Shown here: one piece after another, positions 7,737-29,021 of the stretch | Numbering within the stretch: position 1 is the stretch's first letter | How the letters are laid out: each line of letters opens with the position of its first letter | Virus record (IMG/VR): IMGVR_UViG_3300041402_000666 | Coordinates: 1-32,753 of that record | Source: a virus | DNA: 32,753 nt | Reading direction: 5' to 3' (one strand) | Position numbers and translations under genes: made by a program | The notes under the pieces: generated by a model | Told to the model about the DNA's origin: nothing | The model's input: the letters and a program-made list of their open reading frames with translations, nothing else | Database searches by the model: none

Positions 7737-8699
7737 CTAGCTCATAACCGATGCGAAGTAAACACCCAGGTCGGCTCCTGTGACTTTGAAGTCGAACGCG
7801 TGTTTCCCTTTCAGGAAATCGCGGTCGCGGTCTTCCTGGACTGTTGGGATAATGTTCACAGTCAGGTCCGAATCGTCAATGTTCCAAGCGAAGGTATAAC
7901 CTGCCGCTGGTTCCCGCAAAGCGGGTCGTTCCGGAACATACAGAAGAAGTGCGTTCTTCCCCCAAACAAAAGCCTGAGTTGCAGAACTAGCCCCTTCCAG
8001 GGATGTTCGCTGGACACATTTCCCAATAAGAAGCTTTTCAATGTCCAGGGCTTCAGCGACTTGTTCCTGAGTCAGAATGCCGCGCCCGGTGTATTTATAC
8101 ATATCCAGGAGTAACGGGTGCCGGCGAAGTTTGCTGAAGACCTGTTTGCCGATTACCATGGTATTCGGTTCAACACCCGTATTCTGAAGGACCGTATCGC
8201 GATAAGTGTCAATATCATCGGGCGGATCCGAGTTATCGTAATCGTCCCAAGCGACGAAATCGGTTCCAACGGTTGGGTTCGTGTCCCATATTGAGCCCGC
8301 GAAGACTGCCGTAGCAATCTGAATTTCGCGGTTCAGCATGAATTGATGGGCCAACCATTCGGTTCCTGTTTCTTCCAGTTGGACAGCAACGTCCTGGTTC
8401 TTTTTGTCTTCCCAAGGTATCGCGTAGCCCAGGTGATAAATGTCGCAGTAATATTCGTCAGTCGAAAGCTTCATACGACCTTCGGGGTAAGTGTCCCCGG
8501 GTGTTCGGAGTTCAACCTGATTAGTCAACCAGGACCCCTTGTCCCAAACGTAGTATTTATCGCTTTGCTTTTCCACAGGGACTAACGGTAAGACCTGGTC
8601 AGCGATAAAGGTTTTATTCCGATACGCAATAGCGATTTCTGACAAGGCTGCATCAATATGAATATCGCCTGCGGTCGGATTGCCAAAATGTTGTTTCAT
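7737..8699 (-). CDS. Major capsid protein
   Basis: 320 aa, the usual size for HK97-fold capsid proteins without a delta domain. It begins MKQHFGNPTAGDIHIDAALS and continues with an 'ALSEIAIAYRNKTFIADQVL' segment typical of one common phage capsid family. Helical 'LNREIQIATAVF' and 'VIGKQVFSKLRRHP' segments resemble the E-loop-to-spine helix and P-domain of that family. It follows the protease/scaffold and decoration genes, with SD GAAGGGGG. A 70-bp gap to the next gene contains only that gene's SD region. Confidence 0.85.
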   Translation of the reverse strand: MKQHFGNPTAGDIHIDAALSEIAIAYRNKTFIADQVLPLVPVEKQSDKYYVWDKGSWLTNQVELRTPGDTYPEGRMKLSTDEYYCDIYHLGYAIPWEDKKNQDVAVQLEETGTEWLAHQFMLNREIQIATAVFAGSIWDTNPTVGTDFVAWDDYDNSDPPDDIDTYRDTVLQNTGVEPNTMVIGKQVFSKLRRHPLLLDMYKYTGRGILTQEQVAEALDIEKLLIGKCVQRTSLEGASSATQAFVWGKNALLLYVPERPALREPAAGYTFAWNIDDSDLTVNIIPTVQEDRDRDFLKGKHAFDFKVTGADLGVYFASVMS

Positions 8700-8740: not shown

Positions 8741-9130
8741 TTAAGCCGTGTCAATCGCGCCTGGGAATGAGAAGTTGAATACCCCCATTTCCCCATCGCT
8801 ATCCGCGCCTTCGACGCAAGTCCCAACGCAATGAGTAGTAGTATCGGCCGTTTCCCAAAGTGCGACCTTGCCCCCACTGGCAATGCGGACCTTTTCGCCC
8901 GCGGCAATCGCTTCCGAGACTACGCCAGGAGCCCGACCGATAATAAGGACTTGCGCGGTTTCCCCGTCTTCAGGTTTATTTATAACCATGCCCGCGGGAA
9001 TATCAGTATCTGCTGAAGTCAAGGCGACCTGACGGTCAGCTTCCAGCTTACAACCGTAATACTGTTTCGAAGAAAAGTCGTCGCCCGCCTTCATGGATTC
9101 GGTCCAAATTAACTTTTCGTTTACGCCCAT
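8741..9130 (-). CDS. Capsid decoration protein (DUF2190-like)
   Basis: 129 aa. The core DIPAGMVINKPEDGETAQVL and later GEKVRIASGGKVALWE match the DUF2190/gpD-like pattern 'G.......g..v.v...G.......a.i..Gd.v..d..G'. Such trimeric proteins stabilise the expanded shell. It lies between protease/scaffold and major capsid genes, the standard place. SD GAAGGGGG, 10 nt from ATG. Confidence 0.72.
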   Translation of the reverse strand: MGVNEKLIWTESMKAGDDFSSKQYYGCKLEADRQVALTSADTDIPAGMVINKPEDGETAQVLIIGRAPGVVSEAIAAGEKVRIASGGKVALWETADTTTHCVGTCVEGADSDGEMGVFNFSFPGAIDTA

Positions 9131-9170: not shown

Positions 9171-9797
9171 CTACTGCCGCCTAGCGAAGTACAAGTCGGG
9201 ACGGGCTTTGGACACAGTCTTGATTGCTTGAGCCTTTGAAGCGTCCTTGTTTTCCGCCATGTATTTAGATACTTCGTTATCGAAGTCGGTTGGTCCAGCT
9301 ATCCTTGCAGTACCGACTATCTTCATCGCTTCAGCGGTCAGACGATTCGCTTCCTTAAGAGCCGCGTACTGTGTTTCTGCGGCATCCTTGCCCGCTTCGG
9401 CCTCAATGTCGGCCAGCTTTACAGCGTGTTCGCGGGCAGTCCCGGGAATCGCACTGAATTCGCGGGTCTTGTCTTCCCAATCCCGAATGCGCTTTTCAGC
9501 TTCCAGCTTTTCGATTCGGGATGTCGCTTTCGCGAATTCCTTCGACATTTCGCCTTCAGGAGCAGCGGCTTTCAATGCTTCAATGACGGCGACCATTTCT
9601 TCAACGGTCGCTTCAGCGCCCAGGCCCAGGGCGGCGGCTATATCGGCAACCCCCTTCCCTGGTTCTTCAGGCAAGGCTTCCACGATTTCGCCAACAGTTA
9701 CTTCGGCTTCGTCCTGGAACTTTTCCGCCAGATCCTTGACTAGCAGAGCCTTGATTTGGTCGGCGGTCATGTCTTTGAATGCTTTGAGTTTCTTCAC
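9171..9797 (-). CDS. Nested scaffold protein from an internal GTG start
   Basis: Inside the protease-scaffold frame a GTG (9795-9797, VKKLKAFKDM) follows AAGGGGG with a 10-nt gap, the same SD and spacing used by the decoration gene at 9130. The 208-aa product would hold only the helical, Glu/Ala-rich scaffold. Lambda (C/Nu3) and many phages make scaffold in this way. The SD and start are seen; their use is inferred. Confidence 0.62.
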   Translation of the reverse strand: MKKLKAFKDMTADQIKALLVKDLAEKFQDEAEVTVGEIVEALPEEPGKGVADIAAALGLGAEATVEEMVAVIEALKAAAPEGEMSKEFAKATSRIEKLEAEKRIRDWEDKTREFSAIPGTAREHAVKLADIEAEAGKDAAETQYAALKEANRLTAEAMKIVGTARIAGPTDFDNEVSKYMAENKDASKAQAIKTVSKARPDLYFARRQ

Positions 9798-10985
9798 GTC
9801 TTTGTTACCCCCTTCATTTGAGTGAGAATGCGCCTGGCCTTTTAACCAACCACAGACGCGGACAGGGTCAGTAATGCCAGGCTTGCCCGTCAGTTCAGAT
9901 ACACATTGATCGAAACCGACAGTCCCGACCCAGGCAATTAGAGGTTGAATATTCCCCTGGTATTCCTGGTCGGCATAAGCGCGGACTTCTTCGGCGACTT
10001 CCGCGTCGTCGCCCTGGTCAACGGAATGTTTACCGCCCACCATGCGTTCGAATAGTTCAGTAATGTTACCGAACAAAGCCCTGAATAATGGTGCGCCCTT
10101 CTTCCCCTTGATTATGTCCGCAACCTTACTTCGAATCTCGTCGAACTCGGATCGAAGCGTTGCAGGATCCGGTAGCTGATCGCCAATCTTAAACGACCAT
10201 ACCCGCGCACCTTTCCTAGTCCCGCCGAATACCAGGGCCTTTTCCAGGGTTGCCTTGTCAACTGCCGCTTCTTCCGCGCCCAATAAGGCAACCCCTGTTA
10301 TTACGGGACCGTAATCCCCGACCGTATCTTCAATCTCGACTGATACAGTCGAGTATTGGCCGCCTTCGATAAGTTTAGTTATCGGCTCGGGGATATTATC
10401 GAACGCTGCGACCAGAAGGTCGCCTTTGCGTTCGAGGGAAGTCATATTACCAATTTTGATTTGACCCTGACCGTTATCACCCGTTATCACTTCAATGGGT
10501 ACGCCCAGGGCTTCGGCTATTTTACGGTTGAATTCGTCAGACGTATGTCCGCATTTGATCGGCACTAGTAAAGGGACACCCGCCCGGAATGCCTTGACCA
10601 TTTCATCCAGATCATCGTTTTCCCAGGACTTTTCGAATCCCGCGCTATCAGTCCAAGTACCCGCAGCGAATATCGTGACTCCCGAAATCTTCTTCATGCT
10701 CGGAGCTTGAAACTGTTTCAACCAACCGAATCGGGTCAGTTCATAACCCGCTTCTTCAGCCGCAGTAGTCGCTTCCTGGTAAGCTATTGATTCCGATTTA
10801 CCAGCGACCAGAGCCACATCGTAAGCGTTCAGGAAAGGTTCGGGATACTTATCGGCTGCCATACCCGATGGCCAAGCTCCCGTTATCTTCTTATGTAACC
10901 AAGCGCAAAAGCCTTCAGGACTGGACTTGTCAGCGTTCTCTATAACACACTGGTCAAAATCAGCATACGGTCCGAATGGTGACAT
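9171..10985 (-). CDS. Prohead protease fused to scaffold
   Basis: About 604 aa from ATG at 10985, preferred over an upstream GTG at 10991 because GGGGG then lies 9 nt away. Residues 90-260 resemble Mu I/S49-like phage proteases, with VPIKCGHTS, LLVAAFDNIPEP and YSTVSVEIED; His and Ser of a serine protease are plausible but not proven. The second half is Ala/Glu-rich and helical (coiled coil, about 400-570) like scaffolds. A short Cys motif occurs twice: FDQCV...FCAWL near residue 10 and FDQCV...VCGWL near 358. A nested start at 9797 would give the scaffold alone. Confidence 0.75.
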   Translation of the reverse strand: MSPFGPYADFDQCVIENADKSSPEGFCAWLHKKITGAWPSGMAADKYPEPFLNAYDVALVAGKSESIAYQEATTAAEEAGYELTRFGWLKQFQAPSMKKISGVTIFAAGTWTDSAGFEKSWENDDLDEMVKAFRAGVPLLVPIKCGHTSDEFNRKIAEALGVPIEVITGDNGQGQIKIGNMTSLERKGDLLVAAFDNIPEPITKLIEGGQYSTVSVEIEDTVGDYGPVITGVALLGAEEAAVDKATLEKALVFGGTRKGARVWSFKIGDQLPDPATLRSEFDEIRSKVADIIKGKKGAPLFRALFGNITELFERMVGGKHSVDQGDDAEVAEEVRAYADQEYQGNIQPLIAWVGTVGFDQCVSELTGKPGITDPVRVCGWLKGQAHSHSNEGGNKDVKKLKAFKDMTADQIKALLVKDLAEKFQDEAEVTVGEIVEALPEEPGKGVADIAAALGLGAEATVEEMVAVIEALKAAAPEGEMSKEFAKATSRIEKLEAEKRIRDWEDKTREFSAIPGTAREHAVKLADIEAEAGKDAAETQYAALKEANRLTAEAMKIVGTARIAGPTDFDNEVSKYMAENKDASKAQAIKTVSKARPDLYFARRQ

Positions 10986-11160
10986 TCTCACTTACCCCCT
11001 TTTCGATGCCATTACGACGCCGCCAGTACTGAGTAATATTTTCGCCCGAGACAAGCGCAACCGCTCCGCAAACAAGGCAATCCTCAAAGGATTGATTCCC
11101 CATTCCGCGGGATAGTTCCTGATTGATAGTCATAGCATTTTGACAATTCGGGCACTCCAT
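10960..11160 (-). CDS. Small zinc-ribbon protein upstream of protease
   Basis: 66 aa from ATG at 11160 (GGGG 6 nt upstream). A longer frame reaching 11226 would run through the intrinsic terminator at 11178-11213, so I reject that start. CPNCQ (residues 3-7) and CLVCGAV give four zinc ligands; the C-terminus is basic (QYWRRRNGIEKG). The end overlaps the start of the protease gene by 26 nt. Function unknown. Confidence 0.6.
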   Translation of the reverse strand: MECPNCQNAMTINQELSRGMGNQSFEDCLVCGAVALVSGENITQYWRRRNGIEKGVSENVTIRTVC

Positions 11161-11177: not shown

Positions 11178-11213
11178 AAAAAAACCCCGAAGGACGGTAA
11201 TCCGTCTTCGAGG
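11178..11213 (-). terminator. Intrinsic terminator after the RNA unit
   Basis: On the minus strand CCTCGAAGACGG-ATTA-CCGTCCTTCGGGG forms a stem of about 12 bp with one bulge, followed directly by seven Ts (11178-11184). This is a textbook rho-independent terminator. It lies just after the tRNA-like element, in the middle of the head operon, so downstream head genes need read-through or another promoter. Confidence 0.85.
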
Positions 11214-11242
11214 TTGGTCGGGCCAACTTTAAGGGCGGTCTT

Positions 11243-11317
11243 TGGTAACGGGCCGGGGAGTTGAACCCCGTTCTTCGGCTTATGGAACCGACGACTTTCC
11301 GGTTGTCCTACCCGCGC
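11243..11317 (-). tRNA. tRNA-like element, possible tRNA-Met(CAT), imperfect
   Basis: Reading the minus strand: a 3-bp D-stem (GAC/GTC) with a GG-containing loop; an anticodon stem TCGGT/GCCGA with loop TCCATAA (anticodon CAT, but C instead of U at position 33); a perfect T-arm CGGGG-TTCAACT-CCCCG; then a 7-nt 3' strand GCCCGTT, discriminator A and encoded CCA (11243-11245). The acceptor strands pair poorly: only CGGG/CCCG fits, and that is out of register. An outer GGCGG (11317-11321)/CCGCC (11234-11238) stem encloses the element. It may be a degenerate tRNA or a tRNA mimic. Confidence 0.55.
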
Positions 11318-11324
11318 CGCCTGT

Positions 11325-11340
11325 ATTCAATTGTTAAACC
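11325..11340. repeat. Degenerate direct repeat, left copy
   Basis: ATTCAATTGTTAAACC matches ATTCAGTTGTTAACC at 11463-11477, with one substitution and one indel. The two copies bracket the 123-nt structured RNA. Confidence 0.6.
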
Positions 11341-11463
11341 TATGTCAGCTAGTCACTCAGTTGCGGTATGTAAACGGTAGCTACTCCGCCCTACCCTTCA
11401 GTCACGTTCAACAGTTTTCTACCAGGATAACTGGCTCACTGTCGCTTTCGCGTAGCTGACATA
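11341..11463 (-). ncRNA. Candidate structured RNA with closing stem and pseudoknot
   Basis: As minus-strand RNA, a perfect 11-bp closing stem (TATGTCAGCTA, 11453-11463, with TAGCTGACATA, 11341-11351) encloses tightly abutting elements. These are a CGC-GAAA-GCG tetraloop hairpin (11443-11452), then a hairpin ACAGT...ACTGT (11411-11442) with inner GCCAG/CTGGT, then GGTAG/CTACC (11376-11395) whose loop holds GCGG that can pair with CCGC at 11363-11366, an H-type pseudoknot. Coding potential is absent. A promoter lies upstream and a tRNA-like element plus terminator downstream. I do not recognise an Rfam family. Confidence 0.62.
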
Positions 11464-11478
11464 TTCAGTTGTTAACCT
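11463..11478. repeat. Degenerate direct repeat, right copy
   Basis: ATTCAGTTGTTAACCT, the partner of the repeat at 11325-11340. It overlaps the stop codon of the 67-aa gene. The pair may be the trace of a duplication or of an inserted RNA element. Confidence 0.6.
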
Positions 11479-11675
11479 TTCGTCGCTTCTACGACCTGAT
11501 CTTTTGATTTAGTATGGTTCGTCTTTTTTAAAATGTCAAGTAAGCTGGAAATTGGGATAACGGCAACGTGCTTTTCCCCGTGCCGGCGGTCCTTAATAAC
11601 CAGGTTATCGCCGACGACCTGGGCCAGCTTTTCCGAACCACAGCAATCACAATAAACTATGTCGCCGTTCAGCAT
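11472..11675 (-). CDS. Small zinc-binding protein (CDCCG motif)
   Basis: 67 aa. The N-terminal VYCDCCGSEKLAQVVGDN followed by LVIKDRRHGEKH resembles small Com-like or 'CxxCGSEK' phage proteins found beside head genes; only one CxxC is present, with the later DRRHGEKH histidines as possible ligands. The C-terminal half is Lys-rich. The gene ends inside the repeat that flanks the structured RNA, and the promoter for that RNA lies within its 3' part. Confidence 0.6.
   Translation of the reverse strand: MLNGDIVYCDCCGSEKLAQVVGDNLVIKDRRHGEKHVAVIPISSLLDILKKTNHTKSKDQVVEATKG
11511..11539 (-). promoter_or_regulatory. Sigma70-type promoter in front of the structured RNA
   Basis: On the minus strand TTGACA (11534-11539), a 17-nt spacer, then CATACT (11511-11516). 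The -35 is perfect and the -10 matches 4/6. The predicted start near 11503 lies about 40 nt before the structured RNA, so RNA, tRNA-like element and terminator form a unit of about 325 nt. Confidence 0.55.
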
Positions 11676-18640: not shown

Positions 18641-18913
18641 TTAACTAGTCTCCTTTCGCTTGAAAAAGTCATCATAAGAAGATTGTAAATTTCGCCAGAA
18701 CTGCACACTAGTTCCGAAAGCATCACTAAGCATACAAGCCATCATCAGCGTTATTCTTCTTTTACCAGCTAAGGTTTCCTCCACTATCTTTAATGAGCAA
18801 TCCATTTCTCTAGCCAGTGTTTCCCTCGTCCAACCCCTTGCTTTGAGTTCATCTTCAATCAGTTCGCAAGGTGGGAAGATTTCTGCTGGTTTTCTTTCAT
18901 TCTCTTTTGACAT
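18641..18913 (-). CDS. HigA-like XRE transcription regulator
   Basis: 90 aa. EIFPPCELIEDELKARGWTR, then REMDCSLKIVEETLAGKRRI and ACMLSDAFGTSVQFWRNLQS match the HigA antitoxin/VapI pattern ('pGe.l.eel...g.s...lA..lgv....i..i..gkr.it...a..la..fgts..fW.nlq'). The helix-turn-helix covers about residues 25-60. No HigB toxin lies beside it; the neighbour upstream is another HTH gene. GGAG SD. Possibly the phage's regulatory switch or an antitoxin that neutralises a host toxin. Confidence 0.78.
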   Translation of the reverse strand: MSKENERKPAEIFPPCELIEDELKARGWTRETLAREMDCSLKIVEETLAGKRRITLMMACMLSDAFGTSVQFWRNLQSSYDDFFKRKETS

Positions 18914-19213
18914 TCAATTAGTCTCCTTTCCCTTGGTTAATTGATAATGGGGATAAACTGTTAATTCAAGGCTTCTATCTGTTTCCTTCTCCCAGAATGA
19001 TAATAATTCGTCTTCACTTAATGCCATCCATCTCCACAAAGCAATGAACGAATCTGCTTTTACGACAAACGGCCTTTTATTAAATCTCCATACCGTGCAG
19101 AGTGCAACACCTGTCTCAGTAGCAACATCTCGATAGGTTTTATGCCTCTGGAACATTAGTGCCTTAAAAGTATCCCCTAAAGTATCAACCTCAACATTAA
19201 ATTCTATCTTCAA
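18914..19213 (-). CDS. HTH transcription regulator
   Basis: 99 aa from a TTG start with SD AGAGGAG 8 nt upstream. ALMFQRHKTYRDVATETGVA followed by LCTVWRFNKRPFVVKADSFI is an XRE-type helix-turn-helix: 'yrdvA.etGV...Tv.R'. The C-terminal WRWMALSEDELLSFWEKE is a helical tail. Its stop touches the start of the HigA-like gene, so both are one unit. They resemble a two-gene regulator pair rather than a toxin-antitoxin pair. Confidence 0.68.
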   Translation of the reverse strand: MKIEFNVEVDTLGDTFKALMFQRHKTYRDVATETGVALCTVWRFNKRPFVVKADSFIALWRWMALSEDELLSFWEKETDRSLELTVYPHYQLTKGKETN

Positions 19214-28415: not shown

Positions 28416-28661
28416 TTATTTCCCCCTCAATAGAATTCTAAATATCCTGATGATTCGATTTCGCTTCTTCCGCGGTCGATTATAGTTCCGCGCTGGAAGA
28501 TTGAACAACCAGCGCAACGTCTGATTCGGTGTCCTGCCTGGCAATCGGTTATTCAATATTTCCAGAACTTCGGTATCAATACGGACTGATTTACTGGTTA
28601 TCCTACTTGCCCCACGCATGGCTTCCAGGTCTTCAACCTGTTTCTTAGTCCTGTTATCCAA
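28416..28661 (-). CDS. Ribbon-helix-helix-like regulator, first early gene
   Basis: 81 aa from a TTG start (GGGGG 7 nt upstream). TSKSVRIDTEVLEILNNRLP, then GRTPNQTLRWLFNLPARN resemble RHH/CopG-type proteins ('..v.id.evle.L......t.n..lr.l'), followed by a very basic tail (RPRKKRNRIIRIFRILLRGK). It is the first gene after promoter P1, whose spacer carries GCGGTAC and a variant GCTATAC 11 bp apart, so autoregulation is plausible. Confidence 0.58.
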   Translation of the reverse strand: MDNRTKKQVEDLEAMRGASRITSKSVRIDTEVLEILNNRLPGRTPNQTLRWLFNLPARNYNRPRKKRNRIIRIFRILLRGK

Positions 28662-28702
28662 CTTCGTACCCCCTATTTATATGGCTTAATACTTATATAT
28701 TC

Positions 28703-28730
28703 AGTATAGCACTTGTACCGCCCTTGTCAA
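28703..28730 (-). promoter_or_regulatory. Early promoter P1
   Basis: Minus strand TTGACA (28725-28730), a 16-nt spacer, TGC extension and TATACT (28703-28708). It shares GGGCTTGACA-N3-GCGGTAC with P2. The start near 28695 lies about 35 nt before the TTG of the first early gene. Confidence 0.75.
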
Positions 28731-28926
28731 GCCCATTTGCAAAACAAAGACAAACTTTAGTACTACTCAGGGATCACTCTTTTGGGGGATATCAATTGCC
28801 AAAGGTGACGTAGCACTGTAATCAAAATTGTCAGGACCCGAGGGAATTATACTAGGATAGGGTATGGCAACCCGCTGGCGGTTATCCTGTGAGCTTAGAC
28901 TGCTATTCTAAGGGGATTGGTAAGGG
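28731..28926. other. Intergenic region between late terminator and early promoter
   Basis: No gene found on either strand. It holds inverted-repeat material around 28856-28890 (GGATA...TATCC enclosing CCGC/GCGG) and, on the minus strand, a weaker promoter-like pair CTGACA-N16-TACGTC (28807-28834) with the same ACA(A)GTGCTA ending as P1. Possibly regulatory. I see no protein-coding or tRNA signal. Confidence 0.5.
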
Positions 28927-28972
28927 CAAAATAATGGGTCCTGGGAGTTTGCCCGATACATCCCAAGACCCA
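28927..28972 (-). terminator. Intrinsic terminator at the end of the late operon
   Basis: Read on the minus strand, TGGGTCTTGGGA (28961-28972) pairs with TCCCAGGACCCA (28935-28946): 12 bp including one U.G pair, 14-nt loop. ATTATTTTG follows. It ends transcription after the holin-like gene and insulates the early promoter. Confidence 0.75.
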
Positions 28973-28987
28973 ATCCGAAAGGAAGAC

Positions 28988-29007
28988 GCCTGACTAATTA
29001 GCCAGGC
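28988..29007. repeat. 20-bp near-perfect palindrome after the holin-like gene
   Basis: GCCTG-A-CTAATTAG-C-CAGGC: symmetric with a single A/C mismatch. It lies just before the terminator. It could be a protein-binding site or a pre-terminator hairpin. Confidence 0.55.
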
Positions 29008-29021
29008 CCCCTATAAAGAGG

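Follow-up and report, generated by a model that had tools for sequence, protein, structure and literature searches.

A conserved promoter, hairpin and terminator unit before the capsid genes of an uncultivated phage clade: a candidate leader with an optional tRNA

Introduction

Why should a promoter be followed, after a few hundred base pairs and in the middle of the head genes of a phage, by an intrinsic terminator? The question is raised by positions 11178 to 11539 of the viral record IMGVR_UViG_3300041402_000666, the 32,753 nucleotides of which were analyzed and are referred to here as the window. The original prediction described this locus as a self-contained non-coding RNA unit in which a promoter, a 123-nt structured RNA, a tRNA-like element and an intrinsic terminator follow in order on the minus strand, the terminator being a gate before the capsid genes. 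Here, the locus is compared with its counterparts in related phages.

Results

Layout of the locus

The unit is surrounded by head genes, and the portal and terminase genes are upstream of it. The stretch 11471-11161 is free of genes, in agreement with the prediction that none would be found between 11472 and 11160; in the list of open reading frames (ORFs), the sole overlapping same-strand ORF is a TTG extension upstream of the next gene. The predicted promoter, 123-nt segment and terminator are all present, and the "tRNA-like" element is restated below as a tRNA gene. The features are as follows (all on the minus strand).

11472-11675, minus: zinc-finger-like gene, 67 aa, the 3' end of which holds the promoter (ORF; homologues in 24 loci)
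11511-11539, minus: sigma70-type promoter, TTGACA-17-CATACT (kept in all homologues)
11482-11495, minus: 5' hairpin, GTCGT-AGAA-GCGAC, within the end of the zinc-finger-like gene
11462-11477, minus: spacer repeat GGTTAACAACTGAATA, upstream copy, containing the stop codon of the zinc-finger-like gene
11341-11463, minus: foldable 123-nt element with a terminal stem of 11 bp (this phage only)
11324-11340, minus: spacer repeat GGTTTAACAATTGAATA, downstream copy, at the conserved position before hairpin 1
11317-11321, minus: hairpin 1, 5' arm GGCGG (invariant, 20 units)
11243-11316, minus: tRNA gene, CAU anticodon, CCA encoded, C1.U72 mismatch
11234-11238, minus: hairpin 1, 3' arm CCGCC (conserved, 20 units)
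11213-11227, minus: hairpin 2, GTTGG-CCCGA-CCAAC, with its 3' arm overlapping the base of the terminator stem
11178-11215, minus: intrinsic terminator, stem of 14 bp followed by 7 T
10960-11160, minus: zinc-ribbon-like gene, 66 aa, 3' of the terminator (Cys_rich_CPXG match below cut-off)
9171-10985, minus: head maturation protease gene (PHROG 976, E 1.2e-15)
8741-9130, minus: scaffold gene (PHROG 673)
7737-8699, minus: major capsid gene (PHROG 1005, E 1.3e-76)

The core of the unit is conserved in related phages

Ten viral contigs were recruited by their major capsid protein, and more were found by a core DNA pattern and by portal and capsid profiles. The alignment comprised 20 distinct complete units; a truncated unit (L045) and a distant one (L049) were considered apart from these. 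In 20 distinct contigs, the unit occupied a constant location between the 67-aa zinc-finger-like gene and the protease region, and its elements followed in the same order: TTGACA and a -10 element, a spacer that mostly reads TTAACAAYYGAATA, the hairpin GGCGG/CCGCC, the hairpin GTTGG-CCCGA-CCRAC and the terminator. A covariance model of the core identified one place per genome in seven near-complete genomes, with the weaker matches overlapping the same place, and also matched the core of L049 (E 0.0013), the portal of which is 53% identical. Among more distant contigs, L076 carries the promoter, hairpins and terminator before the protease gene, and L072, L073 and L075 have a TTGACA promoter immediately before the protease gene without a terminator; no such promoter was found before the protease gene of L046 and of L071/L077. 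Isolated relatives with about 30% identical capsids displayed no comparable gap before the capsid genes, and a spread of the unit beyond the clade was rejected on these grounds.

The promoter is kept in every homologue

The promoter consists of TTGACA (11539-11534), a spacer of 17 nt and CATACT (11516-11511). By its sigma70 consensus score, it does not stand out from what chance would give in the region (3 sites observed versus 4.5 expected). Sites with an exact TTGACA and a -10 element number four in the window, this promoter included; all belong to the minus strand, the plus strand having none. What makes the predicted promoter convincing is its conservation, as TTGACA is kept in every homologue. 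The codons at the -35 position read CTT GAC in 21 of 21 units, and the preceding codon varies (TTA, TTG, CTA and CTT for Leu; also ATA and ACA); CTT accounts for 24% (113/475) of the Leu codons in the genes of the window. The hexamer of L049 is still TTGACA although it falls downstream of the stop codon. Judged from these comparisons, the promoter is under selection. The original prediction proposed an RNA made independently of head proteins; the promoter more probably serves the capsid genes too, since that of some more distant relatives sits directly before the protease gene; the capsid genes seem to be its lasting partner, with the terminator as a gate between the two.

Other control points were observed in the window. 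A site at 14399-14371 (minus strand; TTGACA-17-TAGAAT), some 40 nt before the portal start, is a separate portal promoter, by which the head genes fall into several transcription units. The second large gene-free gap (28661-29021, minus strand) harbors the strongest terminator of the window, which ends near 28934 (-22.5 kcal/mol), followed at 28730 (minus strand) by TTGACA-16-TATACT with an extended -10 element; this gap is probably a main control point of another operon. In the packaging region, an HTH antitoxin-like protein (PHROG 1381) adjoins an unassigned 99-aa protein (18641-19213, minus strand), a possible toxin-antitoxin pair.

The 123-nt element is private to this phage

The 123-nt element (11463-11341) has a perfect 11-bp terminal stem and a folding energy of -42.3 kcal/mol (z -3.4), which was reached by 3 of 1000 dinucleotide shuffles. 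The evidence for structure is moderate, as 2.4% of the 123-nt windows of the genome reach z <= -3. The element is flanked by direct repeats of 17 and 16 nt, not mentioned in the original prediction, that represent copies of the spacer (11340-11324 and 11477-11462), and it is restricted to this window, being absent from all other units. No match was obtained in Rfam at E 10, no similarity was found in phages, plasmids or E. coli genomes, and neither the exact core nor a same-stem pattern was detected in viral contigs. Thus, the predicted structured RNA folds better than its shuffles, but it lacks conservation and any homologue found. Three 19-nt pattern matches in bacterial genomes were dismissed, as at most 21 nt were common and about two such matches are expected by chance at the size of the collection. 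A 26-nt match in L014, L032 and L030 lies inside a methyltransferase-like gene and was taken as chance; in these three contigs a methyltransferase-like coding stretch (1563-2199 in L014) directly follows the portal gene in frame. L003 and L045 carry different, unrelated extra sequence at the place of the element, so this interval tolerates insertions.

Two near-invariant hairpins precede the terminator

The terminator of the unit (-19.3 kcal/mol here) reads CCCCG...CGGGG in all complete units except that of L069; only one other strong terminator was found in the window. Two short hairpins had not been mentioned in the original prediction: GGCGG/CCGCC around the tRNA (hairpin 1) and GTTGG/CCAAC before the terminator (hairpin 2). 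Both are near-invariant in sequence, including the loop of hairpin 2, and their conservation is such that they provide almost no covariation support. The 5' hairpin, which reads GGCCGC-GGAA-GCGGCC in several relatives, is absent from L004, L012 and L069. As a possible sign of a switch between hairpin 2 and the terminator, the R of CCRAC was compared to the bases after GGGG: A always occurred with TT, and G with TT, TC and, twice, CT (Fisher p 0.054, computed on related sequences).

Two pairings were tried and discarded. The tRNA segment CCGAAGAACGG can pair with the 3' arm of the terminator at 10 of 11 positions in this window, but was rejected as an antiterminator because the pairing fails in L010, L014, L019 and L028. 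In many relatives, the CCCGA loop of hairpin 2 can pair with the following gene's ribosome-binding region; this pairing was rejected since it is impossible in this window and in L003, L004 and L069.

The order from promoter to terminator before the capsid genes, as originally predicted, is conserved across the clade, and from it we infer the regulated part of the predicted gate. We regard the region as a capsid-operon leader with a terminator gate comparable to lambda PR'-tR', and assign this reading a probability of about 50%. Against it count the location amid the head genes instead of at the head of the late operon, the near-lack of covariation in the hairpins, the isolates that display no comparable gap, the distant contigs L046 and L071/L077 and the lack of a recognized antiterminator gene among the ORFs tested. 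Alternatively, the locus could be a stand-alone small RNA (sRNA) gene, the terminated RNA of which acts in trans or delivers the tRNA, with hairpins that bind and capsid genes transcribed from elsewhere. The persistence of the unit without the tRNA is in line with this idea, and the near-invariance of the hairpins, loop of hairpin 2 included, suggests sequence recognition beyond structure; moreover, StxS, a processed regulatory sRNA that acts in trans, is the terminated late-leader RNA from PR'-tR' in Stx phages (PMC7873438). However, an alternative capsid promoter was not found: between the terminator and the capsid start (2.2-2.5 kb), 12 of 12 phages lacked any sigma70-consensus site of at least 10/12, a threshold that a divergent promoter could escape. 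The distant relatives with a promoter directly before the protease gene and no terminator also argue against a stand-alone sRNA gene, which we consider unlikely.

A second alternative is a passive, leaky terminator without any switch, which would set the ratio of the capsid-operon transcript to the upstream transcript and the tRNA, with a fixed share of the transcripts begun at 11539 and at the portal promoter (14399) reading through. Phage L has intra-operon terminators, for which partial termination was proposed as the reason (PMC8022706). No Q-, N- or NusG-like antiterminator gene was recognized among about 40 ORFs tested, most of which match nothing, as is the case for most early ORFs; this result, too, is compatible with passive leakage. 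On the other hand, a fixed ratio needs no near-invariant hairpins before the terminator, and capsid genes usually require more transcript than portal genes, not less. Purely passive leakage is therefore doubtful to us, and the gated leader remains our preferred reading.

The tRNA gene is an optional, probably exchanged insert in hairpin 1

The predicted tRNA-like element matched the Rfam tRNA family (RF00005) at 11316-11246 with 31.3 bits (cut-off 29), and was not called by ARAGORN in the window. Seven further copies scored 36.4 to 54.2 bits, and the copy of L019 went undetected. This allele (L019 2637-2709) has a 4-nt D loop and an extended anticodon stem, yet its acceptor ends are identical. 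The nine alleles form a cloverleaf with compensatory changes in the D, anticodon and T stems, and ACCA is encoded in all eight complete ones; the tRNA of L045, at the end of its contig, was counted only as far as sequenced. The element is thus better named a tRNA gene with initiator-like features.

The tRNA was found inside hairpin 1 in 9 phages and was absent from 12. Every complete copy sits between GGCGG and GACCGCC, while the tRNA-less phages have a short loop at this site that closes the same hairpin 1. None of the five large tRNA-bearing contigs encodes any other tRNA. On the portal tree, the presence of the tRNA requires 7 changes, at least 5 of which are forced by well-supported branches; although the portals of L023 and L027 are nearly alike, the two differ in tRNA presence. 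The tRNAs of L010 and L028 are identical at 73 of 74 bases in distant backgrounds, and L014 and its sister L003 have only 54 of 74 tRNA bases in common. This pattern is, we infer, best explained by allele exchange via the conserved flanks. In L043, GGCGGCGCG is retained where the tRNA would lie and may be left over from a tRNA that was lost.

These distributions bear on the proposal that the 123-nt RNA and the tRNA belong to one self-contained RNA unit together with the promoter and terminator. All elements do lie within one predicted transcript, but no relative carries the 123-nt element and less than half have the tRNA: the tRNA is missing from 12 of 21 units and the 123-nt element from all but this one, and the promoter, hairpins and terminator are retained. 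By the refuting condition set in the original prediction, namely related phages in which the two RNA elements are not conserved, both elements are dispensable, and a single functional non-coding RNA composed of all four is highly improbable.

The tRNA resembles an initiator only in part

The nine alleles were scored for the initiator criteria of formylation and anticodon-stem G-C pairs (PMC7949028). As in bacterial tRNA-fMet, the anticodon is CAU and the 1:72 pair is mismatched, as C.U in 9/9 alleles compared to the bacterial C.A; C3:G70 is likewise shared by 9/9, and G2:C71 (8/9; the window's own copy has G2.U71) and A11:U24 (8/9) by most. In contrast to bacterial tRNA-fMet, the third G-C pair of the anticodon stem is missing: G-C pairs were found at 29:41 in 9/9 and at 30:40 in 7/9 alleles, but at 31:39 in 0/9 (U.G or C-G). 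Further differences are C33 in 6/9 alleles, with U33 kept in three, and A8 in 8/9. Because the 31:39 G-C pair is absent in all nine, the tRNA is classified as initiator-like and not as a member of the initiators. The features it has in common with initiators are thus those on which formylation depends, whereas it deviates in those required for selection at the P site.

A tRNA of this kind might replace host initiator tRNA that is destroyed by putative anticodon nucleases (e.g., VapC), its changed anticodon loop conferring resistance. The CAU anticodon and the formylation determinants kept in most alleles (criteria from PMC7949028) are consistent with this, phage tRNAs with changed anticodon loops have been proposed to evade such enzymes (PMC10264068), and frequent gain and loss of the tRNA fits a benefit that depends on host defence. 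Nevertheless, without the third G-C pair needed for initiation the tRNA may initiate poorly, the loop change is limited to the six C33 alleles, and, for the most part, phages confronted with a VapC that cleaves initiator tRNA have been reported not to carry such a tRNA. We thus judge nuclease evasion to be an improbable role. Its combination with the gate is a more speculative proposal, and a quite improbable one: hairpin 1 would be a recombining cargo slot in a capsid attenuator, the tRNA would be chargeable with methionine and formylatable despite an altered anticodon arm and would sustain initiation, and hairpin 2, overlapping the terminator stem, would switch the capsid genes on. If this were true, the phage would keep starting proteins while the host destroys its own initiator tRNA.

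Discussion

Under the gated-leader reading, host RNA polymerase would start at about 11504 and mostly stop at about 11178, yielding a short RNA, about 325 nt long here and about 125 nt long in relatives without the tRNA. Readthrough when capsid is needed would be permitted by a phage factor or condition that acts via the hairpins. The loop of hairpin 1 would serve as a slot for a tRNA with initiator-like features, which, owing to this position, would be made even if transcription halts at the gate. We take the tRNA as optional cargo that is gained, lost and exchanged among relatives, and the 123-nt element, which lies upstream of the core, as an insertion private to this phage.

The unit represents a conserved candidate for capsid control separate from the packaging genes in an uncultivated phage clade. 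Close pairs (L023/L027 and L021/L028) differ by one hairpin-borne tRNA, so the role of a lone phage tRNA becomes testable. With its formylation determinants kept and the initiator anticodon-stem pair missing, the tRNA is also of use for studying how phages influence the initiation of translation.

In antiterminator RNAs of the HK022 put type, hairpins close to the start of the transcript work in cis on RNA polymerase; the unit of this clade has two conserved hairpins, with no observed link to the polymerase. Among its nearest counterparts are the lambda PR'-6S RNA-tR' region and the StxS leaders, which likewise combine a promoter, a short RNA terminated by default, an intrinsic terminator and late genes. 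Unlike lambda PR'-tR', the unit described here lies in the middle of the head operon before protease and capsid genes, has two near-invariant hairpins before the terminator and comes with no recognized Q-type gene; it is considered analogous to lambda PR'-tR' and not a member of it because portal and terminase genes lie upstream. In some P22-like phages, such as L and Sf6, tRNA genes are located near the 5' end of the late operon (PMC8022706), and there, as here, the tRNA is present in some relatives only. The leaders of L and Sf6 precede lysis genes, however, whereas the unit studied here precedes capsid genes and holds a single CAU initiator-like tRNA, always inside the GGCGG/CCGCC hairpin.

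Pseudomonas phage LESphi2 (L139) carries a tRNA-Met and then a terminator between Q and holin, and thus resembles the unit in its lone CAU tRNA, the intrinsic terminator directly after it and the late control region. Its homology extends no further than the tRNA level, the acceptor stem differs, and lysis genes lie downstream. In phiLM21 (Sinorhizobium; L142) and RHph_TM3_3_3 (Rhizobium; L141), a tRNA-Met is flanked by a NusG-like antiterminator gene on one side and by the terminase genes on the other; these tRNAs display A11:U24 and a mismatched acceptor top, as in the unit of this clade. The pairing of an initiator-like tRNA with a late control region may be recurrent across unrelated phages. 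As tRNAs in late-operon leaders are already known, the unit described here is a variation on a known theme.
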